Shown here: positions 1-55,272 of the stretch, in pieces
Position numbering within the stretch: the stretch's first letter is position 1
Layout of the letters: each line of letters begins with the position of its first letter
DNA from: Bacteroidota bacterium
Lineage (GTDB): Bacteria; Bacteroidota; Ignavibacteria; Kryptoniales; JAKASW01
Assembly: GCA_021794075.1 (NCBI GenBank)
Contig: JAJYRM010000014.1
Span: forward strand, 1 to 55,272
Direction: 5' to 3'
DNA: 55,272 nucleotides
The notes under the pieces: generated by a model
The model's input: the letters and a program-made list of their open reading frames with translations, nothing else
The model's database searches: none
What the model was told of the DNA's origin: nothing
Program-made: the position numbers and the translations under genes

Positions 1-611
1 TCCGATCTCAGTTCGCGGGTTAGCAACTCGATGTAACCGCTCCTGTCGTTCAAGAACTCAGGCGGTAGTGCGTGTGCGCCAAGGAACGTGACTATGATCT
101 CGGAAATAGACTCCTCTCGCAGCTCGTTTGCCGCTTCAAGAATCTTTATCTCGTTTCTGAAATCAAGCCCGTAACCACTCTTAATTTCGATAGTTGTGGT
201 GCCGTATTGAAGGGTTTTGTCGATCCTTTTTCTCGCCTGAGATCGCAATTTCGACTTTAGCATCTCTCTCGTGTTTGAGACCGTACTAAGTATACCGCCG
301 CCGCTCGAAGCTATCTCAGAGTAGCTCATCCCTTTCGCCCGAAGCGCGAATTCATGCTCCCTCGTCCCGGCGAAAATCGCGTGAGTGTGCGCGTCGATGA
401 AACCCGGCACGATGGTTTTGCCTGACGCGTCAAATGTTTCGGCATCAGGTATGACGCCGGCAGTTCCTATCTTTCTGATAATCCCATCTTCGATTACGAC
501 ATCGGCGTTCTCGACCACGCCTGCGTCTTGCATCTCTTCGCCTCGCTTGCACCTCTTTCCGGCAGCGGAGCAGGTTGCTATCGTCGCGGCATTTCTTAGA
601 ATGAGCTTCAC
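1..611 (-). CDS. hutI: Imidazolonepropionase, N-terminal part (cut by window edge)
   Basis: Third enzyme of histidine degradation: a cytoplasmic metal-dependent amidohydrolase that opens imidazolonepropionate to formiminoglutamate. About 203 N-terminal residues are present; the C-terminus lies left of base 1. Seen: the amidohydrolase metal motif PGFIDAHTHAIF near residue 65-76, followed by TTTIEIKSGYGLD and FLGAHALPPEF, which are characteristic of HutI rather than other amidohydrolases. The start is a GTG at 611-609 that overlaps the TGA of the upstream SIMPL gene (GTGA overlap), so the two genes are translationally coupled. No other hut gene is visible. The family call is firm; the remaining active-site residues cannot be checked here. 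Confidence 0.9.
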   Translation of the reverse strand, partial: MKLILRNAATIATCSAAGKRCKRGEEMQDAGVVENADVVIEDGIIRKIGTAGVIPDAETFDASGKTIVPGFIDAHTHAIFAGTREHEFALRAKGMSYSEIASSGGGILSTVSNTREMLKSKLRSQARKRIDKTLQYGTTTIEIKSGYGLDFRNEIKILEAANELREESISEIIVTFLGAHALPPEFLNDRSGYIELLTRELRS

Positions 612-40513: not shown

Positions 40514-40684
40514 GAACTTTGGATCTCGGTGTTTTTGTTATTTTAGGTAATCGGGAACAGGGAAAACGGTGGAACGGAGAATGAGTAGACGTGTGCGTAG
40601 CCCATGTTCTGTCCTAAATGTTCTGACGTAAATGCACAGCCCATCTTACGTGTTTTTCGTCTTCCGGACTGGCTCGTCCCTCCG

Positions 40685-41046
40685 TTAGAAGCCGCGTGTT
40701 CTAGTCTCAATCAACTTACATAATACGGAGGATACCTTTCTGCACCGGTCGATCAGCTCTCTTCCTGTTTCTTTCTCAATTATCATTAGTTCCATTGCGA
40801 AGTAAATTTGAGTCGTGGGCTCTCCTGATGATCCCTTCGAAACGTAAAGCAAAAAAAGAACTCCTTGTTGGTTTGCCGTTCGAAACGCTCAGCGATATTG
40901 GAAGGATTCGATACAGACGACCTGCAGATTTGATCTCTCAAAGAAAAGTCCCTGCAGTTTTTGAGACGCTTGTGGATATCCGCCGTTAATCTCATTCCTT
41001 CCTGCCACACTTCCAAGTCCTCGAAGTCTTCGATCTTTCCACCCAT
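40685..41046 (-). pseudogene. Four-helix-bundle protein gene, frameshifted (copy 1)
   Basis: The frame from 41046 reads MGGKIEDFEDLEVWQEGMRL ... PSNIAERFERQTNKEF and then becomes meaningless after a run of seven T (minus strand; 40851-40857 on plus). The +2 frame beyond it resumes the family: LLYVSKGSSGEPTTQIYF ... IDRCRKVSSVLCKLIETR, ending at TAA 40687-40685. One extra T restores about 120 residues matching copy 2 at 42687. The conserved NIAEG is NIAER here. Either real inactivation or a homopolymer sequencing error. The family (S23/23S rRNA intervening-sequence protein) has no known catalytic role. Confidence 0.8.
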
Positions 41047-41255
41047 GGTACAGCCCTCCTGATTTTAACTGGGAGAATAAGGATCGATAATATATTCCGT
41101 TTTTCCGTTCTCGATTTTTCCGTTTTTCGCTCTTTTCCGTTCGTTTCCGGACGCCACTGTCCGATTCCGAACACTCGTAACTTCACATTATTTGACGAAA
41201 CATTCAAATTTATTCAAAAAGACAGGAATCTTCACTGTACCTCCTGACAGTTTGA

Positions 41256-41271
41256 GGGCACACCGGTTGTA
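41256..41271 (+). promoter_or_regulatory. Candidate sigma-54 promoter of the efflux block
   Basis: GGGCAC-accgg-TTGTA: GG at -24 and G at -12 are separated by the required 10 bp, but the -12 element is TTGT instead of TTGC. It lies about 60 bp upstream of the adaptor start, a suitable distance, and an NtrC-type regulator is encoded divergently next door. Imperfect match, so tentative. Confidence 0.4.
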
Positions 41272-41332
41272 CTTCTATTAGCATAATCATAAGTTCATTA
41301 AACTGCCAGCAGTTCAGCGAGAAGGAATTCAC

Positions 41333-42583
41333 TTGGACAGGAAGATCGAAAAGAAGCCATTCTACAAGAGGATGCGATTCTGGATATACGCGAGCGGAGT
41401 CGCTCTGTTCATCGTATTGATAGCGATGATAATCGCGGACAGCGGATCCAAACTGAATGTCGACGCGGATAAGATAACGATCTCAACGGTGAGGGAAGGG
41501 GACTTTCAGGAGTTCATACCGGTAACCGGGACCGTCATGCCAAAGACCTCGTATTACCTTGACGCGATCCAGGGGGGCATCGTGGAGGCGAAATATGTAG
41601 AAGAGGGAGCGATTGTCAGGAAAGGCGAGAAACTCCTGAAACTTTCCAACACCAATGTTCAATTGAACGCACTTCAGCAGGAAACGTTTGCTTATCAGCA
41701 GATAAACGACGCGCGGAACACTCGTTTACAGATTCAGGAGAACAGCATCTCGCTCCAGAATGCTCTCGTAAACGCGGTATATCAGCTGACCAACTATAAA
41801 GAGATCTTCGAGCGCCAGAAGAAGATGTACGAACGGAAACTCATCTCCGTGCAGGACTATGAACTGGCATACAATAATTATCATCAGGCGCTTGAGCAGG
41901 AAGATTTGTCGCGTAGAAACTTCGAGCAGGATTCACTACTCGGTGTATCTCAGATATCGCAAATTGCTTCCTCGATCACTAGGATGGAACAGAATCTGCG
42001 ATTGATAAGAGAGACGATCGACAACCTCACCGTTAAGGCGCCGATCACTGGTCAACTTACTTCTCTGAACGCCGAGATTGGTCAATCGAAAAGTCCGGGA
42101 GACCAGCTCGGGGTAATCGACGCGCTCGATGGGTTCAAGGTGAGAGCCGATATCGATGAGTTCTACATTGCGCGTGTCGTGAGTGGATTGCACGCGACGG
42201 TAACGATAAATGACAGCGACTTCAAACTAATAGTGACGAAAGTCTATCCTGAAGTTACGAGTGGGAAGTTTCAGGTTGACATGAACTTTTCGGGGAGAGT
42301 CCCCGATGGAATAAGAAGAGGGCAGACGCTACAGATAAGGCTTCAGCTAAGCGAACGGACGAAAGCATTGCTGTTGCCACGAGGCGGCTTCTACCAGACG
42401 ACGGGCGGACAGTGGGTGTTTCTCCTCAATAGTTCGGGGGACCTCGCGGTGAAAAGAAACATCAGTATTGGCCGACAGAATCCGGATTACTTCGAGGTCT
42501 TAAGCGGACTGAGGCCAGGCGACAGGGTCGTGACATCGTCGTATGATAACTTCGGAAATGTGAAGGAACTGGTGATAAAGTAA
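41333..42583 (+). CDS. HlyD/MacA-type periplasmic adaptor subunit
   Basis: 416 residues. The start is TTG 41333 behind AAGGA. One N-terminal membrane anchor (RFWIYASGVALFIVLIAMIIA, about residues 14-34), then a barrel-sandwich half (GIVEAKYVEEGAIVRKGEKLLKL), a long coiled-coil hairpin (about 105-225), the returning lipoyl half (NLTVKAPITGQLTSLNAEIGQ), and beta-barrel and membrane-proximal domains. It would couple the inner-membrane MacB-type permeases to an outer-membrane exit; no TolC-like gene is in the window. Confidence 0.9.
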   Translation: MDRKIEKKPFYKRMRFWIYASGVALFIVLIAMIIADSGSKLNVDADKITISTVREGDFQEFIPVTGTVMPKTSYYLDAIQGGIVEAKYVEEGAIVRKGEKLLKLSNTNVQLNALQQETFAYQQINDARNTRLQIQENSISLQNALVNAVYQLTNYKEIFERQKKMYERKLISVQDYELAYNNYHQALEQEDLSRRNFEQDSLLGVSQISQIASSITRMEQNLRLIRETIDNLTVKAPITGQLTSLNAEIGQSKSPGDQLGVIDALDGFKVRADIDEFYIARVVSGLHATVTINDSDFKLIVTKVYPEVTSGKFQVDMNFSGRVPDGIRRGQTLQIRLQLSERTKALLLPRGGFYQTTGGQWVFLLNSSGDLAVKRNISIGRQNPDYFEVLSGLRPGDRVVTSSYDNFGNVKELVIK

Positions 42584-42686
42584 TGAAAAGGAGAACGGAA
42601 CACGGAACAAGGAACACGAACATTATAAAGCCGTCACGGGACATTTGTGAATGGGAAAATGCAACTAGAGAATTCAGAGGCGTAAC
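42584..42686. repeat. Spacer with iterated GGAACAC words
   Basis: Immediately after the adaptor stop there are several near-copies of an 8-bp word (GGAGAACGGAACACGGAACA, then AGGAACACGAAC) at 42590-42622. It is a one-sided version of the spacer pattern seen around the later genes; no clear pairing arm was found. Confidence 0.45.
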
Positions 42687-43049
42687 ATGGGTAAGCATAT
42701 TGGAAGCTTTGAGGATCTTGAAGTCTGGAAAGAAGGAATGGGATTGGCAAAAGAAATTTATGGCCTTCTAAGAAACTGCAAGGACTATTCACTCCGGGAT
42801 CAAATTCATCGCGCCGTTGTATCGGTGCCGTCAAACATCGCGGAAGGATTTGAGCGGCAAACAAATAAGGAGTTTATCCAATTTCTTTACATTGCTAAGG
42901 GTTCGTGCGGCGAGCTTCGAACTCAGCTATATCTGGCCATTAATCTACAAATCATCACCGATGAAACTGGCTCTCTCTTGATTGATAGGTGCAGGAAAAT
43001 TTCATCGATGCTCTTCAACTTGATTAAGACTAGAAAAGACAAATTTTGA
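42687..43049 (+). CDS. Four-helix-bundle protein (S23/IVP family), copy 2
   Basis: 120 residues, all helical. Family landmarks: FEDLEVWKEGMGLAKEIY at the N-terminus, SLRDQIHRAVVSVPSNIAEGFER (invariant NIAEG) in helix 2, then KEFIQFLYIAKGSCGELRTQL and a last helix with RKISSMLFNLI. Intact counterpart of the frameshifted copy at 40685. The family was first seen in 23S rRNA intervening sequences but is widespread as free genes; function unknown. Here it separates the adaptor from the first ATPase gene. Confidence 0.9.
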   Translation: MGKHIGSFEDLEVWKEGMGLAKEIYGLLRNCKDYSLRDQIHRAVVSVPSNIAEGFERQTNKEFIQFLYIAKGSCGELRTQLYLAINLQIITDETGSLLIDRCRKISSMLFNLIKTRKDKF

Positions 43050-43055
43050 GAATAT

Positions 43056-43126
43056 GGGAACACGGGACATCGGAAGCAGCACAAAATTGGGCTGCCGTGG
43101 TCCGATCTGCGTTCTCCGTGTCCCCG
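43056..43126. repeat. Three-tier spacer hairpin (GGAACACGG words)
   Basis: Outer arm GGGAACACGG (43056-43065) pairs with CCGTGTCCCC (43116-43125, one mismatch); middle ATCGGA (43069-43074) with TCCGAT (43101-43106); inner GCAGC (43076-43080) with GCTGC (43091-43095). Lies between four-helix-bundle copy 2 and the first ATPase gene. Confidence 0.6.
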
Positions 43127-43149
43127 CTTAAAGAAAGGACAAAGCCATC

Positions 43150-43839
43150 ATGATTCGGACCGTCAATCTCAAGAAGCTTTACACAACCGAGGAAGTCGAA
43201 ACCACTGCCCTCGATAACGTCAACCTCGATATCAAGGAGAAGGAGTTTGTTGCGATCATGGGGCCGTCAGGTTGCGGAAAGTCGACGCTCCTTAACCTAC
43301 TCGGCATGCTCGACAACCCCAGCGACGGCGAATATTACTTTCTGAATGAGGAGGTATCGAAATACACAGAACGTCAGCGCGCAAACATCAGGAAGCGAAA
43401 CATCGGGTTTGTATTTCAGAGCTTTAACCTGATCGATGAACTGACAGTATTTGAAAATGTCGAGCTGCCGCTTCTCTATCTCGGCATTTCAGCATCGGAG
43501 AGGAAGAAGATGGTGGAAGATGTTCTTGAACGCATGCAGATAATGCATCGCAGGGACCATTTCCCACAGCAGTTGTCCGGTGGTCAGCAGCAGCGCGTCG
43601 CGGTCAGCAGGGCCGTTGTCGCGAAGCCGGCGCTCATACTTGCAGACGAGCCGACTGGTAACCTCGATTCCGCCAACGGGGAGGAGGTCATGAACATACT
43701 TACGCAGCTTAACGATGGCGGCACGACTATCATCATGGTGACACATTCGCCTCATGATTCAGAGTTCGCTCACCGCATTATACATCTTTTCGACGGGCAT
43801 GTGGTGACGGAGAATTATAAAGAGAAGTTTCACGTGTAG
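43150..43839 (+). CDS. MacB/LolD-type ABC transporter ATPase 1
   Basis: 229 residues, one nucleotide-binding domain. Walker A GPSGCGKST, Q-loop VFQSFNLIDELTV, signature LSGGQQQRVAVSRA, Walker B LILADEPTGNLDS and H-loop MVTHSP are all standard. Begins 24 bp past a spacer hairpin, RBS AAAGGAC. Powers the tripartite mechanotransmission-type transporters formed by MacB/FtsX permeases, which move substrates within the periplasm or outward rather than across the inner membrane (family knowledge). Confidence 0.93.
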   Translation: MIRTVNLKKLYTTEEVETTALDNVNLDIKEKEFVAIMGPSGCGKSTLLNLLGMLDNPSDGEYYFLNEEVSKYTERQRANIRKRNIGFVFQSFNLIDELTVFENVELPLLYLGISASERKKMVEDVLERMQIMHRRDHFPQQLSGGQQQRVAVSRAVVAKPALILADEPTGNLDSANGEEVMNILTQLNDGGTTIIMVTHSPHDSEFAHRIIHLFDGHVVTENYKEKFHV

Positions 43840-43855
43840 GCCGCATTGCGCATAG

Positions 43856-43906
43856 CGCATAGAGCAGAGCGCGAAGTAACAGCTGGTTCGCGCTTAATGC
43901 TATGCG
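43856..43906. repeat. Spacer hairpin of GCGCATA words
   Basis: Inner arms GCGCGAA (43869-43875) and TTCGCGC (43887-43893) are perfect; outer arms CGCATAG (43856-43862) and CTATGCG (43900-43906) are perfect; the left side iterates GCGCATA. Lies between ATPase 1 and four-helix-bundle copy 3. Confidence 0.7.
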
Positions 43907-43962
43907 ATTTGTGCGCTTACAGGAAAAGTCGAGTTTATTCACAAGCTTCAAAGGAGGGGGCG

Positions 43963-44313
43963 ATGAAATTCAGATTCCAGGACCTTCAGATCTGGCAATT
44001 CGCGATCGAGCTTTCTGATGACCTTCTGGACATCGCGGATGATTTGGAGAGGAAGAAACTGTTTAGGTTCGCGGAGCAGCTAAGGGGAGCTACTATGAGC
44101 ATGAGCAACAACATCGCAGAGGGATCTGGCTCTTCTTCGCCCAGAGACTTCAGAAACTTTCTGGCAATCGCAAGAAAATCAACTTTCGAGAATGCCAACA
44201 TCCTTATAATCCTGAACCGGCGGAGACACCTGGCGCAGGATAAACTGAACGATCTCCTTGACAAGCTCGATAAGGAATGTAGGATGATTACAAATTTTAA
44301 GAAAACCCTATAG
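43963..44313 (+). CDS. Four-helix-bundle protein (S23/IVP family), copy 3
   Basis: 116 residues from ATG 43963 (AAGGAGG upstream; the longer frame to 43846 runs through a hairpin and is not coding). FQDLQIWQFAIELSDDLLDIA, MSMSNNIAEGSGSSSPRDFRNFLAIARKS and a final Lys-rich helix. Clearly a more distant family member than copies 1 and 2. It lies between the two ATPase genes. Confidence 0.88.
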   Translation: MKFRFQDLQIWQFAIELSDDLLDIADDLERKKLFRFAEQLRGATMSMSNNIAEGSGSSSPRDFRNFLAIARKSTFENANILIILNRRRHLAQDKLNDLLDKLDKECRMITNFKKTL

Positions 44314-44317
44314 TACT

Positions 44318-44374
44318 CAAAGACCGCGGCGCGAAGTGCGGACGAAGCGGGGAACCGCGCCACGCGCTCTTTGG
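44318..44374. repeat. Spacer hairpin CAAAGA...TCTTTG with CGCG words
   Basis: CAAAGA (44318-44323) pairs with TCTTTG (44368-44373); the interior is made of GCGCG-type words on both sides (CCGCGGCGCG against CGCGCCACGCGC). Lies just upstream of ATPase 2. Confidence 0.55.
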
Positions 44375-44406
44375 TCAGCGCCTTGCCAGTAACCTGGAGA
44401 AAGAAA

Positions 44407-45072
44407 ATGATTAAACTCAGTGCCATCGAGAAGTATTTCGCCAACAAGGCCATGAAGACCTACGTTTTGAGAAACATCAGCCTTGAAGTGAAACAGGGCG
44501 AGTTCGTTTCCGTCATGGGTCCGTCAGGATCAGGGAAAACGACGCTTCTGAACATCGTAGGTATGCTGGATGCTCCGTCGAACGGCGAGTATTATTTCCT
44601 TGATGAGCCTGTCCACAAGATGAACGAGAAGAAGCTGACTGAGCTCCACAAGACCTACATAGGCTTCGTATTTCAGAGCTACCACCTCATAGATGAGTTG
44701 ACAGTCTACGAGAATCTTGAGATACCTCTTCTGTATCAGAAGGTGAGCGGGAACGACAGGAAGGGAAGGGTAGCCGAAATCTTGGACAGGTTCAACATAG
44801 TCGCCAAGAAAGACTTGTTTCCGAACCAGCTTTCCGGCGGGCAGCAGCAGCTTGTCGCGATCGCGAGGGCGGTCATCGCTCAACCCAAACTGATACTTGC
44901 CGACGAACCTACGGGCAACCTCCATTCGGAACAGGGCACAGAAATCATGGAGCTGTTGAAGGAGTTGAACAGGCAGGGTACTACGATAATTCAGGTTACT
45001 CACTCCGAGACAAACGCCGCGTATGGAAACAGAATCGTCAGGCTGAAAGATGGATGGATCGAAAAGGAATAA
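44407..45072 (+). CDS. MacB/LolD-type ABC transporter ATPase 2, D-loop variant
   Basis: 221 residues from ATG 44407 (GGAGAAAG upstream). Walker A GPSGSGKTT and Walker B LILADEPTGNLHSEQ are present, but the D-loop Asp (LDS in ATPase 1) is His (LHS), and the signature is LSGGQQQLVAIARA where ATPase 1 has QQQRVA. The H-loop QVTHSE is intact. Such substitutions can reduce hydrolysis or mark an asymmetric partner, so ATPase 1 and 2 could pair or serve different permeases (inference). Confidence 0.92.
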   Translation: MIKLSAIEKYFANKAMKTYVLRNISLEVKQGEFVSVMGPSGSGKTTLLNIVGMLDAPSNGEYYFLDEPVHKMNEKKLTELHKTYIGFVFQSYHLIDELTVYENLEIPLLYQKVSGNDRKGRVAEILDRFNIVAKKDLFPNQLSGGQQQLVAIARAVIAQPKLILADEPTGNLHSEQGTEIMELLKELNRQGTTIIQVTHSETNAAYGNRIVRLKDGWIEKE

Positions 45073-45073
45073 T

Positions 45074-45143
45074 GCAAAGAGCATGGCGTATAGCGCGGAA
45101 CCTCCACTGAGAATTCGTGAGAGGATCGCTCCATGCCTTTTGC
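45074..45143. repeat. Spacer hairpin of GCAAAGAGCATGG words
   Basis: GCATGG (45081-45086) pairs with CCATGC (45131-45136), extended by GCAAA (45074-45078) against TTTTGC (45138-45143). It is followed by the strong RBS (GGGAGGGAGG) of permease 1. Confidence 0.55.
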
Positions 45144-45167
45144 GCAATGCGCAGGGAGGGAGGTCTG

Positions 45168-47594
45168 ATGCTTAGGAATTACCTTCAAGTCGCCCTGAGA
45201 AATCTCAGGAACTCGAAATCATACTCCGTCATCAACGTCGTCGGCCTCGCCGTAGGCATAGCCTGTTTTATAATAATTGCGCTCTTCGTGCGAGATGAGC
45301 TGGGCTATGACAGGTACAGCAAGAACGTGGATCAAGTTTACAGGCCAGGTTTCACAGCGACTTTCCACGGTCGCGAGATCGAGTCAGCCATGAGCCCGGC
45401 CCCGATGGGACCGACGGTCTTTCAGGATTTTCCAGAAGTCGCGACGTATGCCAGGCTCCATTATGAAGGAGGTACTTTAGTCAGGTATGACAACAAAACA
45501 TTCGTGAACCAGCAGCTGATCTGGGCCGACTCTACCGTATTCGGTGTCTTCACGCTGCCATTTGTGGCCGGCAACCCCAGGACAGCTCTTGATCGGCCGA
45601 ATACGCTTGTAATCACCGAGTCTGCCGCCAGGAGGTATTTCGGACAGGATAGCCCAATCGGGAAGATACTGGATGTGGGAAACGGCAGTAAGTATATAGT
45701 CACTGGGGTGATAAAGGACATCCCAAGAAACTCGCATTTCCACGCGGACCTTCTCGGATCGCTTTGCACTTTGAAAGACAGCAGAAATCCGAACTGGATG
45801 AGCAACAACTACTACACTTATTTCCTATTGAAGAAGGGGGCCGACGCGAAAGAATTCAGGCGCAGACTCAACCGGGAACTGGTCGATCATGCCGGTCCAC
45901 AGGTAAAGGCCGTCACCGGAGTATCGATCGAGCAATTCCTCGCCGCTGGCAACAGAGTCGGGTACAACCTGCAGCCGCTGAAATCGATACATCTGTACTC
46001 GCATGTCGATTACGAGCTGGAACAGAACGGAAGCATTTCCACTGTATATGTCTTCTCGACGATAGCCATCGCGATCCTTCTAATCGCTTGCATAAATTTC
46101 GTGAACCTCGCCACTGCGAGATCCGAGAAGCGAGCGAAGGAAGTGGGAATCAGGAAGACGCTCGGGTCGCCTCGTTCTCACCTGATCTGGCAGTTCATAG
46201 CGGAGTCAGTGATGATGAGCGGAGGGTCAGTCATAATTGCTGTGGGTATCGTGGAACTCCTGCTCCCGGTTTTTAACAATGTCGCGGGCAAGCAACTGAG
46301 TCTCGATCTCCTCTCCAATGCGTGGTCGATCCCTCTCCTGGTAGCGCTTGCGGTCGCCGTAGGTGTGGCAGCGGGAACGTATCCGGCACTTTATCTATCA
46401 TCATTTCATCCTATCGATGTGTTTAAATCCAATAAAAGACGAGGGGGAAGTGGCTCGTATCTACGGAATGCGCTTGTGGTATTCCAGTTTACCGTCTCAA
46501 TCGCTCTATTCATCGGGACATTGGTGATCTTCGACCAGCTAAAGTATGTCCGGACGAAAGATCTTGGTTTCGACAAGGAAGAAAGTGTTGTGATTTATCG
46601 GGCTGATGACTTGGGCGCTCAGATACAATCCTTCGAAAACGATCTCAGACAGAACGGAAATATTATTAGCTTGACAAACTCCACCGGTGTTCCGGGAGAC
46701 CAGTACAGTGACAGCGGATTCTGGCTTGAAGGAACCGGTGCGGAAAGGCTTATTGATCTAAGAGTCATAAGGACGGATGTCGACTTCGCGAGGACCTACA
46801 GGCTTCAAATGGCAGGTGGGAGATATTTGTCTGCGCAACACCCTTCTGACAGCGACGCAGTGGTAGTCAACCAGGAAGTTGCAAAAGCTTTCGGAGTGAA
46901 GGACATCGTGGGAAAGTACCTGGTCCTGCCGGGAGAAACGAGGGCGGAGCAGAAGAGACTGCAGGTGGTCGGGGTCATTAAAGATTTCAATTATCATTCT
47001 CTTCATGAGCCGATTCGGCCTTTGGTTATGGGACTTCTGCCCGAAGCAGGTTCTCCCGGGCCATATATTACAGTCCGGCTTGCGCCCGGAAATCATCTGA
47101 GCACGATCTCATATATCGAAAGAGCATGGAAGAAATACGCGGGCAATGAAGAATTCAATTTCAATTTCCTAGACGACAAATTGCAGAAGCTTTACTCGGC
47201 GGATCAGCGAACCAGCAAGATTGCCGGGGCATTTTCAATACTTGCGATCTTCATTGCCTGTCTCGGTCTGCTGGGGCTGGCCGCGTTCGTCACCGAACAA
47301 AGGACAAAGGAAATAGGGATCCGGAAGGCCCTCGGCGCATCCGTGCCGGAAGTAGTGGCACTCCTGTCTGCGCAATTTGCCAAATGGGTATTGATTGCGA
47401 ATGTGATCGCATGGCCCTTGGCTTATCTGATCATGAACAAGTGGCTACAAAACTTTGCATACAGAACTGACCTCACTGTCTGGATCTTTATCTCGTCGGG
47501 CTGTATCGCACTCGCCATAGCAATTCTTACCGTTGGTCTGCATGCTGTGAAAGCGGCAACTGCAAATCCGGTGGAAGCACTTCGATATGAATAA
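45168..47594 (+). CDS. FtsX/MacB-type ABC permease 1
   Basis: 808 residues from ATG 45168. Eight predicted membrane helices: one near 20-42 (VINVVGLAVGIACFIIIALFV), then about 290, 343, 389, 435 and a final set at 687, 738 and 771; large extracytoplasmic (MacB_PCD-like) domains lie at about 45-285 and 460-680. The layout is two FtsX units in one chain. Ends ANPVEALRYE. Most similar to permease 2. It likely works with the upstream ATPases and adaptor; substrate unknown. Confidence 0.9.
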   Translation: MLRNYLQVALRNLRNSKSYSVINVVGLAVGIACFIIIALFVRDELGYDRYSKNVDQVYRPGFTATFHGREIESAMSPAPMGPTVFQDFPEVATYARLHYEGGTLVRYDNKTFVNQQLIWADSTVFGVFTLPFVAGNPRTALDRPNTLVITESAARRYFGQDSPIGKILDVGNGSKYIVTGVIKDIPRNSHFHADLLGSLCTLKDSRNPNWMSNNYYTYFLLKKGADAKEFRRRLNRELVDHAGPQVKAVTGVSIEQFLAAGNRVGYNLQPLKSIHLYSHVDYELEQNGSISTVYVFSTIAIAILLIACINFVNLATARSEKRAKEVGIRKTLGSPRSHLIWQFIAESVMMSGGSVIIAVGIVELLLPVFNNVAGKQLSLDLLSNAWSIPLLVALAVAVGVAAGTYPALYLSSFHPIDVFKSNKRRGGSGSYLRNALVVFQFTVSIALFIGTLVIFDQLKYVRTKDLGFDKEESVVIYRADDLGAQIQSFENDLRQNGNIISLTNSTGVPGDQYSDSGFWLEGTGAERLIDLRVIRTDVDFARTYRLQMAGGRYLSAQHPSDSDAVVVNQEVAKAFGVKDIVGKYLVLPGETRAEQKRLQVVGVIKDFNYHSLHEPIRPLVMGLLPEAGSPGPYITVRLAPGNHLSTISYIERAWKKYAGNEEFNFNFLDDKLQKLYSADQRTSKIAGAFSILAIFIACLGLLGLAAFVTEQRTKEIGIRKALGASVPEVVALLSAQFAKWVLIANVIAWPLAYLIMNKWLQNFAYRTDLTVWIFISSGCIALAIAILTVGLHAVKAATANPVEALRYE

Positions 47595-47603
47595 ACACGT
47601 TTG

Positions 47604-47670
47604 GCGCATAGGGCAAAGGGCAGAGCGCGGACTACAGCATGCTGTGCTCCATGCTCTATGCGCTTTGCGC
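47604..47670. repeat. Spacer hairpin centred on a 12-bp palindrome
   Basis: Perfect palindrome ACAGCATGCTGT at 47634-47645, flanked on the left by GCGCATAGGGCAAAGGGCAG (from 47604) and on the right by GCTCTATGCGCTTTGCGC (47653-47670), which pair imperfectly. The same vocabulary (GCGCATAG, GCAAAG) as the 43856 and 45074 elements. Confidence 0.65.
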
Positions 47671-47690
47671 AAGTCATAGGGAGGCAGGGC

Positions 47691-50114
47691 ATGCTGAGTA
47701 ATTATTTTAAAGTCGCAGTGAGAAACTTGCTGAGGAACAAGCTCTTTTCGATCATCAACATTGCCGGGCTCGCGGTCGGAATCGCCAGCTGTCTCGCCAT
47801 TCTCACTTTTGTTCGAGACGAGTTCAGCTACGACAAGTTCAACAAGAACTCGGATCGGATTTACCGCGCAGCCTTCGCCGTCAGGGTCAACGGCCACGGT
47901 TTCAGCGGGCCGGCAAGCCCTGCGCCTCTCGGACCTCAAGTCGCGCACGATGTGCCGGATGTGGTGGCCTACACGCGCTTGTATCTCGCGGGCTCTCACA
48001 CCGTGGCGTACAACAACAAAGCTTTCAACGAGGAGAAATTCTTCTGGGCTGATTCCACAATCTTCGACGTTTTCACTATCCGGGTAATCGAAGGAGATCC
48101 AAAGACGGCTCTAACGCAACCTAACACGATAGTTATGAATCAGTCGACTGCCCTCAAATACTTCGGCAAGGAAAACCCGCTCGGCAAAGTCGTCACAGTC
48201 GACAGACAGAATGACTATGTGGTAACCGGCGTATTCAAAGACTTCCCCCGGAATTCACATTTCCATCCCGATTTCATCGCATCACTCACAACACTGGCCG
48301 ACAGCCGGAACACAGCCTGGCTGACGAATAATTACTACACATACTTTCTCCTTCGAAGCGGTACGAATCTTGGAAATTTCCAAGGCAAGATTGAGCAGGA
48401 GGTGACAGATCATGTAGCCTCACAACTAAAAGAGTTCACCGGCACTTCTTACAAAGATTTCATGGCGGCCGGGAACAGATATGGGTTCAGACTCCAGCCT
48501 TTGACTTCAATTCACCTTACATCGCCATTCGGTGAAATAGAGCCGGGTGGTTATGCCCCACTGGATTATGTTTTCATTGCAATAGCGATCGCGATATTGC
48601 TGATTGCCACGATCAACTTCGTCAATCTCGCAACTGCGAGGTCGGCGAAACGGGCGAAGGAAGTTGGGGTGAGGAAATCGCTGGGGGCACACCGTTCTCG
48701 TCTCTTAGGGCAATTCCTGGCTGAGTCGATTCTGATGACGGCGATTTCGGTAGTCATGGCGGTTGTAATTATCGAACTCTTCCTTCCACTTTTCAGCGAC
48801 ATCGTCGGCAGGAAGATGGGCTTCGATCTTTTTGCCGATCCGCTCCTGGTACCGGTCCTTGTCGGCTTTATCGTTGTAGTCGGCATAGTTGCCGGTATCT
48901 ATCCCGCTTTTTATTTGTCGTCTTCCGGTTCGTCCATCGCGCTAAGGTCAGGCGCGACTGAGGGCAGACGGAAGTCCAGGTTGCGGAATGCGCTGGTTGT
49001 ATCTCAGTTTGCAGCGTCGATAATCCTGATTATAGCAACACTGGTCATCTATTCTCAGATGGGATATGTCAAGACTGCAAACATCGGATTTCAAAAGGCT
49101 GGCCTTCTCGTCTTGAACGGGGCGGATCATCTCTCGGGACAATTTCAATCGTTCATGCGCGAGCTTGGTGGGAACAAGAATGTCATGAGCCTCAGTAACT
49201 CATCCGCAGTACCAAGTCACCTGAGCGGCAACCATGCCTACCGACTCGAGGGTTCTGGAAGTGAGCAGCCGGAGAACACGTGCGTGTTGGTTTCCGATAA
49301 TGAGTTTGCAAAAACGTATCAGCTGAAAATGGCGGAAGGAAGATTCTTCTCGGCGGAGCATCCTTCGGACACGGGTGCAGTTGTGGTCAACGAAACGTTG
49401 GCGAAATTCTACGGTATAAAAAACATGATTGGAAGACGCATTCTCTTTCCAGGTCCGAGACCGAAAGAATGGGTGCCGTTTAACATTATCGGTGTAGTGA
49501 AGGATTTCAATTATGCCTGGCTGCACGAGCCGATAAGGCCGCTGGCGATAATTCTCCCACGCTATGATGGCTATGTAGGAAGTTGTGTTACGGCTCGACT
49601 GGCGCCCGACAATCAGCCAAATGGAATTGCGGCAATCCAGAGCGCGTGGAAGAAGTATGCAGGCAATGAGCCGCTCAACTATTCGTTTCTAGATGAAGAT
49701 TTGCACCAACTGTACTCTCTCGATTTCAAAACTGAAGAGATTGTCGGCTTGTTTTCGGCGCTGGCAATAATCATAGCATGCCTCGGCCTATTTGGGCTGG
49801 CTGCGTTTACAACAGAGCAGCGGACAAAAGAGATCGGGATCAGAAAAGTTCTGGGAGCTTCGGCGCCGGAAGTGACGAAGTTGCTTTCGCTACAATTTGC
49901 GAAGTGGGTTTTGATAGCGAACATTGCCGCGTGGCCGCTCGCGTACCTGCTCATGAGTAAGTGGCTCAGCCTGTTCGCTTACAGGACGAGCTTGAGTCCG
50001 TGGCTCTTTGTCGCATCCGGTGCGCTTGCGCTAGTCATCGCGCTTGTCACCGTCAGCTCACATGCGATCAAAGCCGCGACGGCAAATCCGGTTGAGGCGC
50101 TACGATATGAGTAG
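47691..50114 (+). CDS. FtsX/MacB-type ABC permease 2
   Basis: 807 residues from ATG 47691 (GGGAGG upstream); the open frame to 47601 crosses a hairpin and is not used. Same eight-helix layout as permease 1, with first helix IINIAGLAVGIASCLAILTFV and the ending ANPVEALRYE. Shares long identical motifs with permease 1 (for example LATARSxKRAKEVGxRKxLG and TTEQRTKEIGIRK), so the two are tandem paralogues. Its final codons lie inside the 156-bp direct repeat. Confidence 0.9.
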   Translation: MLSNYFKVAVRNLLRNKLFSIINIAGLAVGIASCLAILTFVRDEFSYDKFNKNSDRIYRAAFAVRVNGHGFSGPASPAPLGPQVAHDVPDVVAYTRLYLAGSHTVAYNNKAFNEEKFFWADSTIFDVFTIRVIEGDPKTALTQPNTIVMNQSTALKYFGKENPLGKVVTVDRQNDYVVTGVFKDFPRNSHFHPDFIASLTTLADSRNTAWLTNNYYTYFLLRSGTNLGNFQGKIEQEVTDHVASQLKEFTGTSYKDFMAAGNRYGFRLQPLTSIHLTSPFGEIEPGGYAPLDYVFIAIAIAILLIATINFVNLATARSAKRAKEVGVRKSLGAHRSRLLGQFLAESILMTAISVVMAVVIIELFLPLFSDIVGRKMGFDLFADPLLVPVLVGFIVVVGIVAGIYPAFYLSSSGSSIALRSGATEGRRKSRLRNALVVSQFAASIILIIATLVIYSQMGYVKTANIGFQKAGLLVLNGADHLSGQFQSFMRELGGNKNVMSLSNSSAVPSHLSGNHAYRLEGSGSEQPENTCVLVSDNEFAKTYQLKMAEGRFFSAEHPSDTGAVVVNETLAKFYGIKNMIGRRILFPGPRPKEWVPFNIIGVVKDFNYAWLHEPIRPLAIILPRYDGYVGSCVTARLAPDNQPNGIAAIQSAWKKYAGNEPLNYSFLDEDLHQLYSLDFKTEEIVGLFSALAIIIACLGLFGLAAFTTEQRTKEIGIRKVLGASAPEVTKLLSLQFAKWVLIANIAAWPLAYLLMSKWLSLFAYRTSLSPWLFVASGALALVIALVTVSSHAIKAATANPVEALRYE

Positions 50115-50256
50115 CGCCGAAATCCTGCATTGCGGGATCGAATCTCTGAGGTATGAGTGATGACGCAAAGCACAGAGTGTAACGGCAAGAGCGCGCCACG
50201 CTCTTTGCGCTCTGTGAACTAAAACCTGGAGTGAGTGATGCTAAAGAACTACTTCA
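50101..50256. repeat. 156-bp direct repeat, copy A
   Basis: Runs from the last codons of permease 2 through the spacer into the first six codons of permease 3. It matches 55117-55272 with a single difference (A50129 versus C55145); the offset is 5,016 bp. Contents in order: a small hairpin around ATCCTGC-att-GCGGGAT, a 3' permease-end remnant (CTGAGGTATGAGTGA, 50146-50160), a hairpin AGAGCG-cgcca-CGCTCT with GCAAAGCACAGAG words, and the RBS of permease 3. Confidence 0.93.
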
Positions 50257-52583
50257 ATACAGCGTTTAGAAACCTCTACCGAAACAAGTTGTATGCTTCG
50301 GTAAGTGCGCTCGGCCTTGCCATGGGGCTGGCGGCTTGCATCCTGGCGATACGTTACCTGGCTTATGAGCTCAGCTTCGACAAATGGCCTGATTCCAGCA
50401 GAACCTATGAAGTTGTCAGCGTTCAGAACCCTGGTGGTCATGTAACTGAACAAGGCAATACACCGCCTGGACTAGCGACCGCGATGCGAGAGGATATCCC
50501 TGGGATAGAAACTTCCACTGCGTTTTTGATTCGTACTCTCCCTGTCCGCTGGCGCGAACACGATATCTTTCCCGAGAGATTCTGCGTGATCGATTCGAGT
50601 TTCAGGTTTATTTTTCCGATGCAGTATGTCAAAGGAAGTGCCCTGACTTCCCTGAAGGACCACAATTCGGTTGTAATCACTCAAAAACTCGCCGCGAAGC
50701 TCTTTGGCACCGAAGAACCGATAGGGAAAGTAGTTGCCATAAACGGACATGACTGCATTGTGAGAGGCTTAATAAGAAACCTGCCGGAAATTTCAAGCTT
50801 CTCGTTCGACGGTATTCTTTCCAGACAGAACAAAGCTTCCTACCCGTTCGATGACAACCTGAGCTGGATGCGTTTTGCCGACATTCTCACTTTCGTCAAG
50901 CTAATAAGCCCGAGTGATATCGGAAGTGTTTCGGCCAAACTCCCCGGCTTTGTCAAGGCTACCGGAGGATCGCCGGACTTTGAAAGTCTCAAATTACTCC
51001 CTCTCCGGAAAATCCATTTTGCCACATATCTTTCGCCGCTGGTCTCAACGTACGAAATCAAATACCTGTATATCTTCTCTCTCCTGGCATCGCTTGTTCT
51101 TGCTGTATCGGTCTTCAACTTCGTTGGAATAAACATCACGGTGCTCGCCAGGCGAACTAAAGAGATCGGCATTCGCAAGGTCACCGGAGCGACAAGGCGT
51201 GATCTGACTGTGCAATTCCTGGTTGAAAACGTTTTTCTCACGATAATAGCTTTTGCATCAGCCATCTGCATCGCCGAATTAGCTTCTCACTGGTTCGACT
51301 CGATGCTCGGCCTGGCCGGTGGGCCTAACATTTCAATACTGAACTCCACGACCTTCATTCTGCTACTCTGCGTTCTGCTGTTCGATGTAGTCTTGAGTGT
51401 ATATGCGACGAGGATTCTGGCATCAGCGAAAATCAATTTACTCGTGCAGGGGGAGAACGATAGGTTCAGGTTGAAGAGATGGGTCCGCGAAGTTCTGATC
51501 ACGAGCCAGTTCGCGATCGCCGCCTTTCTGATCATTTGTACCCTCGTCGTGGTTTCTCAAATGAATTTCATCAGCCATAAGAATCTTGGATTCGACAAGC
51601 GCGACTTGTTGTTGGTCGATAACGCCGGGACGCAAAGCCACGCGGAGATTCTGAAGAATACTCTTCTGGAAAATCTGGATGTTCTCGACGTATCCGAGAC
51701 AAGGTGGCTGTTGACGACGGGGTACTACCTTGGAGTGTCGATGGAATTCGATAACGGCCATCGGCCGATAACCTTGCATTTCGTTCAGGTCGATCAGAAT
51801 TTCGTCCCGACTCTGGGCCTCGAACTCGTCAGAGGGAGGAATTTCAATCCCCTGGTTCCATCCGATTCGGGGGCGGCCATTGTGAATGAGGAAACACTGC
51901 GAGAGTTGAATATCTCTCATCCGTTCCGTGATTCAATTAGATTTGGCGGCGAGGCTTTCAAAGTTGTCGGGGTCGTCAGGGATTTCAATTACTCGTCGCT
52001 GAGAAATCACGTCGAACCGTTTGTATTTCAATTTGCGAATGCCGATCCTCCATCGCTTGCCGTCAGGATCAGGAAAGGGAAGGCAGAGAACGTTCTGAGT
52101 TATTTGCGGGAGGAGTGGAAAGAGATAAATCCGGATAAAGATCTCAAGTACTCTTTCCTTGACCGGGATTTGAACAAGCTATATGTCAGTGACGACCGGA
52201 TGCTCGATGCGCTGCTTTCCGGCTCACTAGTCGCCATTCTGATTTCATTGATGGGGATATTCGCGCTTTCATCGTTCCTGACCGAAACGAAAACGAAAGA
52301 GATCGCTGTCAGGAAAGTCCTCGGCTCATCTGTACGAGGAATAATCGGTCTACTTTCTTTCGATTTCATGCGTGTAGTGCTGATCGCGAACGTTGTGGCC
52401 TGGCCTGCCGCGTACCTTGTAATGAGAGAATGGCTGCAGGAATTTGCATACAGAATAGGGATTGACTTATGGATTTTCCCGATCGTGAGTCTTTTGATGA
52501 TTACCCTGGCGTTGTTGACGGTCCTGCTCCGTGTACTTAGGACTGCAAGGGCCAATCCCGTGGAGGCGCTGAGGTATGAGTGA
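50238..52583 (+). CDS. FtsX/MacB-type ABC permease 3
   Basis: 781 residues from ATG 50238 (GGAGTGAGTG upstream; an in-frame GTG is one codon earlier). Same two-unit, eight-helix layout, first helix near 20-40 (YASVSALGLAMGLAACILAI), ending RANPVEALRYE. It belongs to a different subgroup from permeases 1 and 2 and is closest to permease 4 (shared TAFRNL and NKLYASVS starts, TKEIAVRKVLGSS late motif). Confidence 0.9.
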   Translation: MLKNYFNTAFRNLYRNKLYASVSALGLAMGLAACILAIRYLAYELSFDKWPDSSRTYEVVSVQNPGGHVTEQGNTPPGLATAMREDIPGIETSTAFLIRTLPVRWREHDIFPERFCVIDSSFRFIFPMQYVKGSALTSLKDHNSVVITQKLAAKLFGTEEPIGKVVAINGHDCIVRGLIRNLPEISSFSFDGILSRQNKASYPFDDNLSWMRFADILTFVKLISPSDIGSVSAKLPGFVKATGGSPDFESLKLLPLRKIHFATYLSPLVSTYEIKYLYIFSLLASLVLAVSVFNFVGINITVLARRTKEIGIRKVTGATRRDLTVQFLVENVFLTIIAFASAICIAELASHWFDSMLGLAGGPNISILNSTTFILLLCVLLFDVVLSVYATRILASAKINLLVQGENDRFRLKRWVREVLITSQFAIAAFLIICTLVVVSQMNFISHKNLGFDKRDLLLVDNAGTQSHAEILKNTLLENLDVLDVSETRWLLTTGYYLGVSMEFDNGHRPITLHFVQVDQNFVPTLGLELVRGRNFNPLVPSDSGAAIVNEETLRELNISHPFRDSIRFGGEAFKVVGVVRDFNYSSLRNHVEPFVFQFANADPPSLAVRIRKGKAENVLSYLREEWKEINPDKDLKYSFLDRDLNKLYVSDDRMLDALLSGSLVAILISLMGIFALSSFLTETKTKEIAVRKVLGSSVRGIIGLLSFDFMRVVLIANVVAWPAAYLVMREWLQEFAYRIGIDLWIFPIVSLLMITLALLTVLLRVLRTARANPVEALRYE

Positions 52584-52587
52584 GAAG

Positions 52588-52690
52588 CAATTATGAATGA
52601 TCAATTATCAGTGCTCAATGAGCAGTCATCAATTACTAGTGAGAGATCTTAGTCGTTCATTGTCCATCGTTTATGGGCAATTGACAATTG
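52588..52690. repeat. AT-rich spacer hairpin of CAATTAT words
   Basis: Left side CAATTATGAATGATCAATTA (from 52588) continues into TCAGTGCTCAATGAG; the right side ends CAATTGACAATTG (52678-52690). Reversed and complemented, the right side resembles the left. It is the AT-rich counterpart of the GC-rich hairpins in neighbouring spacers. Confidence 0.5.
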
Positions 52691-52706
52691 AAACCGGGAG
52701 TCAGTG

Positions 52707-55130
52707 ATGCTAAGGAACTACATGAAGACGGCGTTTAGAAACCTATTCCGGACCAAGTTGTATGCGTCGGTGAGTGTCGCCGGATTGGCTGTAGGGCTTG
52801 CCGTGTGCCTGCTGGCACTTCGGTACCTGATGTATGAGCTGAGTTTCGACAACATTCCCGACAAGAACCGGATATACGAAGTGGTGTTGAATGAGAAATA
52901 CGGGGGAGCGACGCAGAAATTTGCGATCACGCCGCCGTATCTCGACCGCGAAATGAAAAGCTATTTCCCTGAGATAGAGTCCGCGGCATCTTTCAGAATA
53001 ATGCCTGAGTCGATCGAGCAGGATGGCGGTCCGGTTACGCGGCACTCGTTCTGCATCGCCGATTCGAACATCTTCGGCATGCTCGGCATAAAGCTGATTC
53101 AGGGAAATCCGCGGTCATGTCTCACCGACGCGCGGTCAGTCGTCATAAGCAGGAAATTCGCGAGTGAATATTTCGGACCTGTCGATCCCATCGGGAAAAC
53201 GGTCCGCGCTTATCAGTACGACGGCCGGCACAATTTCGTCGTCACCGGAGTTATGAAGAACCTGCCGCGGCGGTCGAGCATTTCCTTTGATGGAATCATT
53301 TCGAGCCGTAGCGACCCAATGATGAACGGCACGCACGCATGGAACTGGAATTCGTTGGCTCCATTCTGTTTCATAAAGTTGAGAGGGGGAGCCGATGCCG
53401 CTGAGATGTCGCGCAATTTCCCATCGTTCATCAGGTCTACAGGCGGAAACCCGCGATCTATCACTTTGATGAAGCTCGTTCCTATCAGCAGCATCCATTT
53501 CATGAGAGATTATAGGACGGGATTCCAAACCGTCGACCCGAAGTACCTGTACTTGATATCCGTCGTCGCTCTACTCGTACTTTCCGTGTCGTTGTTCAAT
53601 TACCTGGGACTGAATATCACGCTCCTCACGAGAAAGGCGAAGGAAATCGGCGTGCGCAAGACGTCCGGTGCTTCTCATGCGGCTATCGCAATGCAATTCC
53701 TGGTTGAAAACGCCATGCTTACTGTCGTTTCGTTCGTGGGCGGCGTCTGCATTTCGGAACTCCTCCTCCCGCTATTCGACTTCACACTCGGTATACGGAA
53801 GGAGGGCCGCTTTATCCGAGAGGACCTCGCGGGAGTTATTCTCTTCGTCTCTGTATTTGTCGTTGACATCGCCGTGAGTTTATACTCCACCCACTTCTTC
53901 GCCAGGATCGGCACCCAGTCACTGATAAAGGGGCGCCTCGCCAACCTCAACCCGAGGAAAAATGTGAGGATGGTTCTGACCGGACTACAGTTCAGCATCG
54001 CCGCGTTTCTGATATGCTGTACAGTGGTCGTCGTGGATCAGCTGAACTTCATCAGGCACAAGGACCTTGGATTCGATCCGGCCGACTTTCTCGTAATAGA
54101 CCGCGCCAGCACGGGGAGCCGGATCGATGTACTGAAAAACGGGATGCGGAAGGACCCCGATGTCACCGATGTGACGGAGGCGGGGGAGTTCCCGACATTG
54201 GGAATCGGCGGAACCATGTCGGGGCTGTATGACAAAGGGAGGAAGTCTCTGACGCTGAACCTTATCGACGTCGACGAGAATTATCTCCCTGCGCTCGGCC
54301 TGCATTTGCTTGACGGTCGGAACTTCAATCCGGGGCTCTCATCTGATTCGGCGTGGTCGAGTGTCAGTCCGCGGAAATTCCATGGAGTTACGTTCAACAT
54401 GAGAGTGTATACAGGCGCAGTCTTGCTCAACCGGGAAGCTTACACGAAATTGAACGCCGCCGGCGATATCTCCGACGGGTTCGTACATTTTGTCGGCAAC
54501 ACCTGGAAGCTGATCGGGATAGTGAAGGATTTCAATTACTCGTCCCTGCGCCACACTGTCGAGCCTGTAGTCCTCCAGTTCAGTACTACCCCTTTCGATT
54601 ATCTCGGAGTGAAGTACCGGGCTGGAAGGACCAAACAGGTTCTGGGTTATATGCGTAAGCTCTGGTCGAAATCCAATCCCGGTCACCTGCTGCAATATTC
54701 TTTTCTCGATGACGATGTTCGAGAAATGTATTCGGGAGAGGACCGGATGTTTGATGCGATCCTCTTCGGATCGGCGACTGCCATCGTAATCGGTCTCATG
54801 GGAATTTTTGCGGTTACCTCATTCATTGCCGAAACGAAGAGGAAGGAGATAGCAATCAGGAGAACGTTGGGTTCGTCCGTGTCGCGGCTCGTCGGTCTCC
54901 TGACCGCCGATTTCCTGAAGCTTGTAATAATTGCCAATGTTATAGCGTGGCCTGTCGCGTATCTTGTGATGAGAGGGTGGCTGCAGAACTTCGCTTACCG
55001 TATAAGTGTAGGTCTCTGGATATTTCCACTTGTAGGCCTGTCCATGCTGGTACTCGCGTTAGCTACGGTATTCGCCCGTGCATCGAAGGCCGCCCGCGCG
55101 AATCCGGTGGAGGCCTTACGATATGAGTAG
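52707..55130 (+). CDS. FtsX/MacB-type ABC permease 4
   Basis: 807 residues from ATG 52707 (GGGAGTCAGTG upstream). Same layout as permease 3, first helix YASVSVAGLAVGLAVCLLAL, ending RANPVEALRYE. Relative to permease 3 it carries an extra segment of about 25 residues in the second periplasmic domain (around SSVSPRKFHGVTFNMRVYTG, residues 545-575). Its last codons lie in copy B of the direct repeat. Confidence 0.9.
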   Translation: MLRNYMKTAFRNLFRTKLYASVSVAGLAVGLAVCLLALRYLMYELSFDNIPDKNRIYEVVLNEKYGGATQKFAITPPYLDREMKSYFPEIESAASFRIMPESIEQDGGPVTRHSFCIADSNIFGMLGIKLIQGNPRSCLTDARSVVISRKFASEYFGPVDPIGKTVRAYQYDGRHNFVVTGVMKNLPRRSSISFDGIISSRSDPMMNGTHAWNWNSLAPFCFIKLRGGADAAEMSRNFPSFIRSTGGNPRSITLMKLVPISSIHFMRDYRTGFQTVDPKYLYLISVVALLVLSVSLFNYLGLNITLLTRKAKEIGVRKTSGASHAAIAMQFLVENAMLTVVSFVGGVCISELLLPLFDFTLGIRKEGRFIREDLAGVILFVSVFVVDIAVSLYSTHFFARIGTQSLIKGRLANLNPRKNVRMVLTGLQFSIAAFLICCTVVVVDQLNFIRHKDLGFDPADFLVIDRASTGSRIDVLKNGMRKDPDVTDVTEAGEFPTLGIGGTMSGLYDKGRKSLTLNLIDVDENYLPALGLHLLDGRNFNPGLSSDSAWSSVSPRKFHGVTFNMRVYTGAVLLNREAYTKLNAAGDISDGFVHFVGNTWKLIGIVKDFNYSSLRHTVEPVVLQFSTTPFDYLGVKYRAGRTKQVLGYMRKLWSKSNPGHLLQYSFLDDDVREMYSGEDRMFDAILFGSATAIVIGLMGIFAVTSFIAETKRKEIAIRRTLGSSVSRLVGLLTADFLKLVIIANVIAWPVAYLVMRGWLQNFAYRISVGLWIFPLVGLSMLVLALATVFARASKAARANPVEALRYE

Positions 55131-55272
55131 CGCCGAAATCCTGCCTTGCGGGATCGAATCTCTGAGGTATGAGTGATGACGCAAAGCACAGAGTGTAACG
55201 GCAAGAGCGCGCCACGCTCTTTGCGCTCTGTGAACTAAAACCTGGAGTGAGTGATGCTAAAGAACTACTTCA
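55117..55272. repeat. 156-bp direct repeat, copy B (continues past window)
   Basis: Matches 50101-50256 with one mismatch. The copy reaches the window edge, so the true repeat is probably longer and continues into permease 5. The last base before the match begins differs (C50100 versus T55116), so the left boundary is sharp. Confidence 0.93.
55254..55272 (+). CDS. FtsX/MacB-type ABC permease 5, first codons only
   Basis: ATG 55254 with the same RBS as permease 3 and the first six codons (MLKNYF), identical to permease 3 over the visible part. Cut by the right edge. Inferred to be a fifth permease because both leader and start codon region are copied intact. Confidence 0.7.

Follow-up and report, generated by a model that had tools for sequence, protein, structure and literature searches.

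How can the junctions between neighbouring permease genes be almost identical when the proteins encoded on both sides have diverged? This question is raised by contig JAJYRM010000014.1 of a Bacteroidota bacterium (assembly GCA_021794075.1, Kryptoniales), which was analysed over its full length of 55,272 bp and is called the window here. The window is the entire contig C216 of a draft assembly of 4.53 Mb in 240 contigs. It holds an array of ATP-binding cassette (ABC) permease genes, P1 to P4, in which the end of P2, the spacer behind it and the start of P3 recur at the end of P4. In the repeated spacer, where the upstream permease gene ends, lies an element of 46-48 bp that is made of two hairpins and had been missed by the original prediction on this DNA. 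Probably, the spacer has been copied by homology-driven recombination between the junctions of one permease array, and this palindromic element, which regenerates the stop codon of its host gene, has been carried along.

The repeated junction

The two copies of the repeat (50101-50256 and 55117-55272) lie 5,016 bp apart in direct orientation and differ over 156 bp in a single base (A50129 versus C55145). As the original prediction had stated, each covers a permease end, the entire spacer and the start codon of the next permease. Agreement at 155 of 156 bases excludes chance. The left limit of the match is set by mismatches at 50099 and 50100, within the last codons of P2; its right limit is the contig end and, since the window is a whole contig, not a biological limit. 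The proteins P2 and P4 are 32% identical while their spacers are 99% identical, which supports the earlier proposal of a recent copying event.

A search of the own genome revealed a third instance of the spacer at the start of contig C93 (C93:1-139, 98% to copy 1), a contig of 5,391 bp that holds the permeases P5 and P6; a related spacer is found in contig C237 (10,449 bp, with a partial permease, P7 and P8). The first 106 bases of C93 match 55130-55235 without exception and share the base by which copy 2 is told apart from copy 1. C93 then disagrees with the window at 4 of the last 37 window bases and enters a different permease, P5. The extent of the identity into the fifth permease, which the original prediction had proposed to read, can thus be followed on C93, where the likeness to copy 1 stops after 15 bases, i.e. 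five codons. Behind the mismatch, the two copies agree without a break over exactly 127 bases, up to the end of the contig. This run hints at an assembler overlap; as proof of the assembler k-mer it was discarded, since the other contig end has a run of 107 bases. In the simplest reading, C93 would follow C216, and the last ~37 window bases would have been written from copy 1. Given the disagreement with C93 and the 127-base run, these bases are unsafe evidence of what follows copy 2. Furthermore, the left end of C216 (window 1-296) overlaps contig C203 (G000:C203:1-289) with 99% identity over 289 bp and mismatches at window positions 2, 5, 7, 71 and 189. Contig ends that overlap and differ thus do occur in this assembly, and near-identical strains may be mixed in the draft.

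These three observations, the 127-base run up to the contig end, the four contradicted bases and the overlap at the left end, would also fit the view that copy 2 as such is an assembly artefact, a contig end written from copy 1. We regard this as very improbable. Copy 2 has a base of its own, C55145, which is common to C93 and C237, and C93 independently carries the same spacer before P5. Hence, at most the last ~37 bases are faulty but not the repeat itself, which is supported either way because P3 and P5 are different proteins.

The original prediction had also considered that recombination between the two spacers duplicates P3 and P4 as one block. The two direct repeats do flank this pair, but the next-best own-genome match in a search with P4 was P3 (46%) and neither P3 nor P4 had a near copy, both among the matches listed. 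Moreover, the likely continuation C93 holds P5 and P6. Since C93 leads to P5, the repeat represents a shared spacer and not a duplicated P3-P4 block; the block was rejected because its second copy was not found among those matches, and there is hardly any chance left for it. Recent copying and homogenisation of the spacer, the gene conversion idea of the same prediction, stood, the latter as the best-fitting option for the repeat.

Two hairpins around the stop codon

The conserved C-terminus of these permeases is NPVE[A/S]LRYE. The unit, which was found at many of the sampled permease ends of the genus, starts in the region of these last codons and consists of GA, stem 1, which crosses the stop codon and has a loop of 7 bases, GA[A/C/T], stem 2, GA and a second copy of the tail. 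In stem 1 the Ala or Ser codon pairs with bases 3' of the stop codon, and the Leu codon pairs with the third stop base (CTA-TAG, TTA-TAA). Six well-matched arm types were observed, namely GGCGCTAC, GGCATTAC, GAGTTTAC, GTCGCTAC, GTCATTAC and GTCTCTAC. Orthologs of P6 that are 82-90% identical bear different arm types, in which both arms have changed.

All five informative pairs of stem 1 were present in 17 of 68 permease ends, compared with a mean of 2.6 and a maximum of 8 in 5,000 shuffles of the downstream sequences; the wider set gave 21 of 99 ends (mean 2.6, maximum 9, 2,000 shuffles), and neither count can be read as a probability because permease ends are related sequences. Spacer DNA or the P4 protein led to the loci of the 68 ends, after two of 70 with another tail were dropped; the 99 also draw on 13 further loci, obtained mainly with a covariance model of the unit. 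An alignment of 28 distinct units (A1, after removal of 3 identical rows from 31 instances) has 95.2% of the cells of its 15 pairs paired. Its covariation amounts to 0.319 as compared with 0.098 after shuffling and at most 0.079 when slid, a figure that leans towards structure since the units were chosen by a rule of 6/8 stem-1 pairs. Copy 2 deviates from copy 1 in that stem 1 is broken at two pairs (5' arm GGCCTTAC vs GTAGCGCC).

Such covarying stems could also mean that spacer and hairpins represent a selected RNA element, which protects the upstream mRNA or couples stop and restart in a polycistronic permease mRNA, so that the identity would reflect constraint instead of copying. In favour of this, the spacer of copy 1 has a strong fold signal (z = -3.9), and the element always lies downstream of the same gene family among the strong matches listed. 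However, 62 of the 99 sampled ends have fewer than 4/5 informative pairs, and copy 2 combines a broken stem 1 with the lack of a fold signal (z = -0.4). Rfam 15 gave no match with E up to 1 in 47400-55272, and the near-identity of loops and unpaired stretches exceeds any structural need. The selected RNA element therefore appears unlikely to us. Intrinsic terminators, defined as a GC-rich stem plus a T run, were likewise absent from 50094-50160, and 9 were found in 40500-55272 compared with 14.4 expected.

A second fold-back register was seen at three of the 99 ends (shuffled mean 1.0, maximum 5 of 2,000). It is unproven as a class by the shuffle, though all three pair at 10/10 positions. In these ends (G010_71 end 8970 on the reverse strand of L084, G023_220 end 2636 of L170 and G036_18 end 6564 of L171) the bases 3' of the stop codon are the reverse complement of the tail, with the loop GAGTA or GAATA.

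Position and distribution of the element

The covariance model was searched over 41 genomes, with stricter filters in that search. Among the matches listed, all 46 with at least 37.8 bits, a limit chosen after viewing the list, lie at permease ends. In 38 of them the stop codon ends exactly 21 nt after the element start, i.e. at the sixth codon from the end; the other 8 are tandem units within 131 nt downstream of a permease stop. Three of the 46 follow short frames, two of which (55 and 65 aa) are truncated where a contig begins, while the third, of 72 aa in G008:C223, had no Pfam match. Superfamily membership was assigned by Pfam for P1-P5 and four proteins of ~410 aa, and elsewhere by tail motif and length only. 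The hosts comprise permeases of ~800 aa and MacB-type permeases of ~410 aa ending in DPIESLRYE, and all four full-length ~410-aa proteins examined contain MacB_PCD and FtsX domains.

A search of 84,980 species with a fixed pattern of the unit, written from sequences of the genus, gave 17 places on 14 stretches, all of which were assigned to the genus contigs studied here. Two weaker matches occur in other families of the class (G023, G036), likewise at permease ends. The element is seen mainly in one genus.

Weak matches of the model were inspected at 21 places chosen from the list, 14 of them permease ends. The other seven include five without explanation (G002:C31, G002:C87, G002:C88, G010:C52, G034:C1). 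In G002:C34, the match falls in a frame that encodes the motif LRHQYY..GFTGKERD and has a Y1 transposase gene nearby; closely similar DNA is present at G009:C24. Judged by the motif, both frames would be of Rhs type. At G010:C52:78338-78394 the weak match with two hairpins reaches into the 3' end of a gene that looks unrelated (frame of 261 aa), so double hairpins of this kind may also be present where other genes end.

Empty and filled sites

Orthologous genes with and without the element illustrate what an insertion does to its host. P1 of the window is empty, and its ortholog in the related genome G012 (91.6% identical protein) carries 48 nt inserted between the second and third base of the Glu codon; the flanks are 92.9% identical over 252 nt. 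A MacB-type gene is empty in two relatives, G012_112|452 (C112) and G009_3|300 (C3). In the own genome (C144|307) it is filled by 46 nt (85.4% identity over 254 nt, stems decayed) and has the tail DPVDALRYE, and in G008_106|503 (C106) it is filled too. The insertion of 46 or 48 nt re-encodes [A/S]LRYE-stop, and the old tail is shifted downstream. In the empty MacB-type gene the stop overlaps the next start codon; after the insertion the displaced tail still supplies that ATG. By analogy with these filled sites, the ATCTCTGAGGTATGAGTGA stretch behind copy 1 of the element may be the displaced tail of P2. Moreover, the Arg codon of the tail is CGN in 12 of 13 filled ends and AGR in 12 of 21 empty ends. 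Since filled and empty ends use different codons, the element seems to bring its own tail.

Traces of exchange may also be present in the coding DNA before the site. Synonymous variation was measured in 34 permeases with pairwise identities below 70%. At conserved fourfold codons, the last 16 columns (6 sites) have a third-position entropy of 1.22 bits, as compared with 1.79 (standard deviation 0.17) at 76 other sites. The Pro codon of NPVE has an entropy of 0.62 and is CCG in 30 of 34 permeases. This low synonymous variation over the last dozen codons is either a trace of repeated copying among 3' ends or the result of some other constraint.

How the junctions may have become alike

We propose the following explanation. 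The element enters at the Glu codon of the conserved C-terminus, its own [A/S]LRYE-stop codons lie in stem 1, and the old tail is moved downstream. Because the element supplies its own tail codons and stop, the end of the protein is rebuilt. The element looks like any permease tail at both of its edges, and the preceding dozen codons are nearly the same DNA in these genes, so copying between ends and tandem pile-up become possible. The spacer would be copied between permease junctions via gene conversion or template switching. Template switching may also lie behind the matching arms of stem 1.

The junction behind P4 is consistent with such a transfer. P4 has GCC TTA where P2 has GCG CTA. These two bases are the unpaired positions of stem 1 in P4, and the identity with copy 1 begins at the base right after them. 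P4 would thus have kept its own two stem bases, which would explain the broken stem. The copied tract would have entered P4 inside stem 1, with a P2-like donor with intact stem and P4 as the probable recipient. Furthermore, the near-identity continues for more than 100 bp past the element. Sequence like the right part of the spacer is located before P6 as well, with 71% identity in the own genome and 81% over 80 nt before the ortholog in G008. Homology-driven copying of the junction agrees better with these data than independent movement of the element.

Alternatively, the element could be a miniature transposon that is moved by a Y1 transposase of the IS200/IS605 or RAYT (REP-associated tyrosine transposase) type and inserts after ..GA without target duplication. 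IS200/IS605 elements have hairpins at their ends, and stems 1 and 2 would represent the left-end and right-end hairpin. The discrete inserts of 46 or 48 nt at a fixed ..GA site and the right end that is also ..GA agree with this view, and Y1_Tnp genes are present in 12 of 13 genomes of the genus, i.e. in all 12 relatives (G001-G012). The exception is the own genome, which has no Y1_Tnp match at 99.8% completeness despite holding the near-identical 156-bp copies. In addition, the restriction of the 46 best matches listed to permease ends is unlike a free transposon, and the extension of the near-identity beyond the element speaks against it. We consider such a transposon improbable. Inspection by eye for features of a miniature inverted-repeat transposable element gave no inverted repeat joining the element ends and flanks that share only ..GA.

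Nevertheless, several points weigh against the copying of junctions by recombination, including the limit of 37.8 bits, the sampling of the wider set of ends and the relatedness of the ends mentioned above. The recombination step is deduced from draft genome sequences. By eye, the ~410-aa permeases share 10-20 nt of DNA around the site, a short tract for RecA. The same pattern could arise through a transposase that acts in trans, and the Y1 transposases of the genus could have acted earlier. The best match away from permease ends reaches 34.9 bits among the matches listed. The core of stem 2 alone has 19 exact matches in 13 genomes (none in the own genome), 10 of them away from permease ends. 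One of the six sites with reduced entropy as a group, Ala -13, is not low (1.85 bits), and single sites elsewhere reach 1.20. The codon bias at the 3' end is equally strong without the element (Pro CCG in 19 of 21 empty ends), so it may reflect another constraint. Finally, the majority of the sampled permease ends are without the element (62 of 99, by the count of informative pairs given above), so any function of the element is not essential.

More generally, we envisage a gene-less two-hairpin element of 46-48 bp that is specific for one codon of one superfamily. It would rebuild the MacB/FtsX C-terminus and stop codon within its own stem and leave the old tail, and in MacB pairs also the next start codon, usable downstream. 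It would spread between ends by homology and thereby make the junctions recombine too. We would give this wider picture a little less than an even chance.

Comparison with known systems

To our knowledge, short palindromic repeats are usually scattered and show no strict gene preference. Integrative elements that enter tRNA genes or the 3' ends of other genes restore the gene end, are kilobases long and encode an integrase. The permease element is similar in that the gene end is replaced by a copy borne by the insert, but it carries no gene. A literature search limited to open-licence papers in PMC, and so without subscription papers and preprints, listed none that describes the element.

The published systems closest to it are compared here on the basis of excerpts from the sources. 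Repetitive extragenic palindromic (REP) elements that are GTAG-tagged and associated with RAYT transposases are described in the excerpt as short palindromes, often downstream of coding regions, that can cluster (PMC3733652). The permease element shares the palindromic nature, the location and the clustering, and GTAG occurs in stem 1 of some copies. As far as the excerpt allows the comparison, it differs in that its GTAG is paired and holds the stop codon, in the two stems within 46-48 bp, in strong matches at one gene superfamily only (among those listed) and in the missing Y1 match of the own genome. A simple REP, a palindrome of 20-40 bp that bears an unpaired tag (GTAG or CGTC) at one end, was rejected on account of the two stems and of the GTAG, which is paired in stem 1 where it is present. 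REP-like dispersal through intergenic space was also rejected, with the strong matches at permease ends; the stem 2 core, with over half of its exact matches elsewhere, speaks against this exclusion.

Rickettsia palindromic elements, according to the available part of the source, are ~150 bp long and lie in frame in unrelated genes, which tolerate the insert (PMC10969869). Tolerance of a palindromic insert by a coding gene is the shared feature. On that partial account, size, the restriction to one codon of one gene superfamily and the supply of a stop codon set the permease element apart, and it was not assigned to this class. By the tests made, it behaves like a short palindromic repeat, yet is neither a REP nor a Rickettsia palindromic element.

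The nearest published mechanism found is template-switch mutation, which in the excerpted text creates or repairs hairpins (PMC8794818). Judged by that text, it would account for the joint change of both arms of stem 1; alone, it leaves stem 2, the displaced tail and the spread between genes unexplained.

A palindrome that is kept to one codon of one superfamily and repairs its gene offers a clean system for the study of origin and spread without an own transposase. The same system bears on how arrays of paralogous permeases keep identical junctions while the proteins diverge, and the arm variants with their matched partners bear on template switching versus selection as the cause of covariation.

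The permease array

The genes for the HlyD-type protein, the two ABC ATPases and P1-P4 all point in one direction (Table 1). MacB_PCD and FtsX domains were detected in each of P1-P4 and in P5, and the locus corresponds to an array of MacB/FtsX-type ABC permeases with an HlyD partner and ATPases. The array comprises P1-P6 and more over the contigs C216, C93 and C237. P4 shares 46% identity with P3 and 31-36% with P1, P2 and P5. Related permease arrays are present in the genus; a P4-based search for related loci in a genome-contig collection gave no relative, and no plasmid match was obtained.

Table 1. Features of the permease array and its junctions in the window.
Feature	Position	Strand	Remarks
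HlyD-type membrane fusion protein	41333..42583	+	PF13437
ABC ATPase	43150..43839	+	PF00005
Second ABC ATPase	44404..45072	+	PF00005
Permease P1	45168..47594	+	MacB_PCD and FtsX (Pfam)
P1 tail, empty site	47574..47594	+	ortholog in G012 has 48-nt insert
Permease P2	47691..50114	+	Pfam
Double-hairpin element, copy 1	50094..50141	+	48 nt, GA of Glu codon to closing CGA; 73.5 bits
Copy 1, stem 1	50096-50103/50111-50118	+	crosses stop codon TAG 50112-50114
Copy 1, stem 2	50122-50128/50132-50138	+	
Repeat, copy 1	50101..50256	+	P2 end, full spacer, P3 start
Putative displaced old permease tail	50142..50160	+	encodes ..SLRYE-stop, out of frame with P2
Long imperfect hairpin, right half of spacer	50171..50216	+	
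Permease P3	50238..52583	+	Pfam
P3 tail without element	52563..52583	+	
Permease P4	52707..55130	+	Pfam
Double-hairpin element, copy 2	55110..55157	+	67.8 bits; two broken pairs of stem 1 directly before the start of identity with copy 1
Repeat, copy 2	55117..55272	+	P4 end, spacer, first bases of next permease; truncated by contig end; last ~37 bases disputed by C93

The spacer between P1 and P2 (47595-47690; fold z = -4.5) and other spacers also contain long imperfect hairpins built from GCAAAG/CATGGAGC-like words; the sequences differ and the style is alike. Some array permeases contain an internal stop codon (G010:C71, G009:C10), and the arrays seem to hold pseudogenes.

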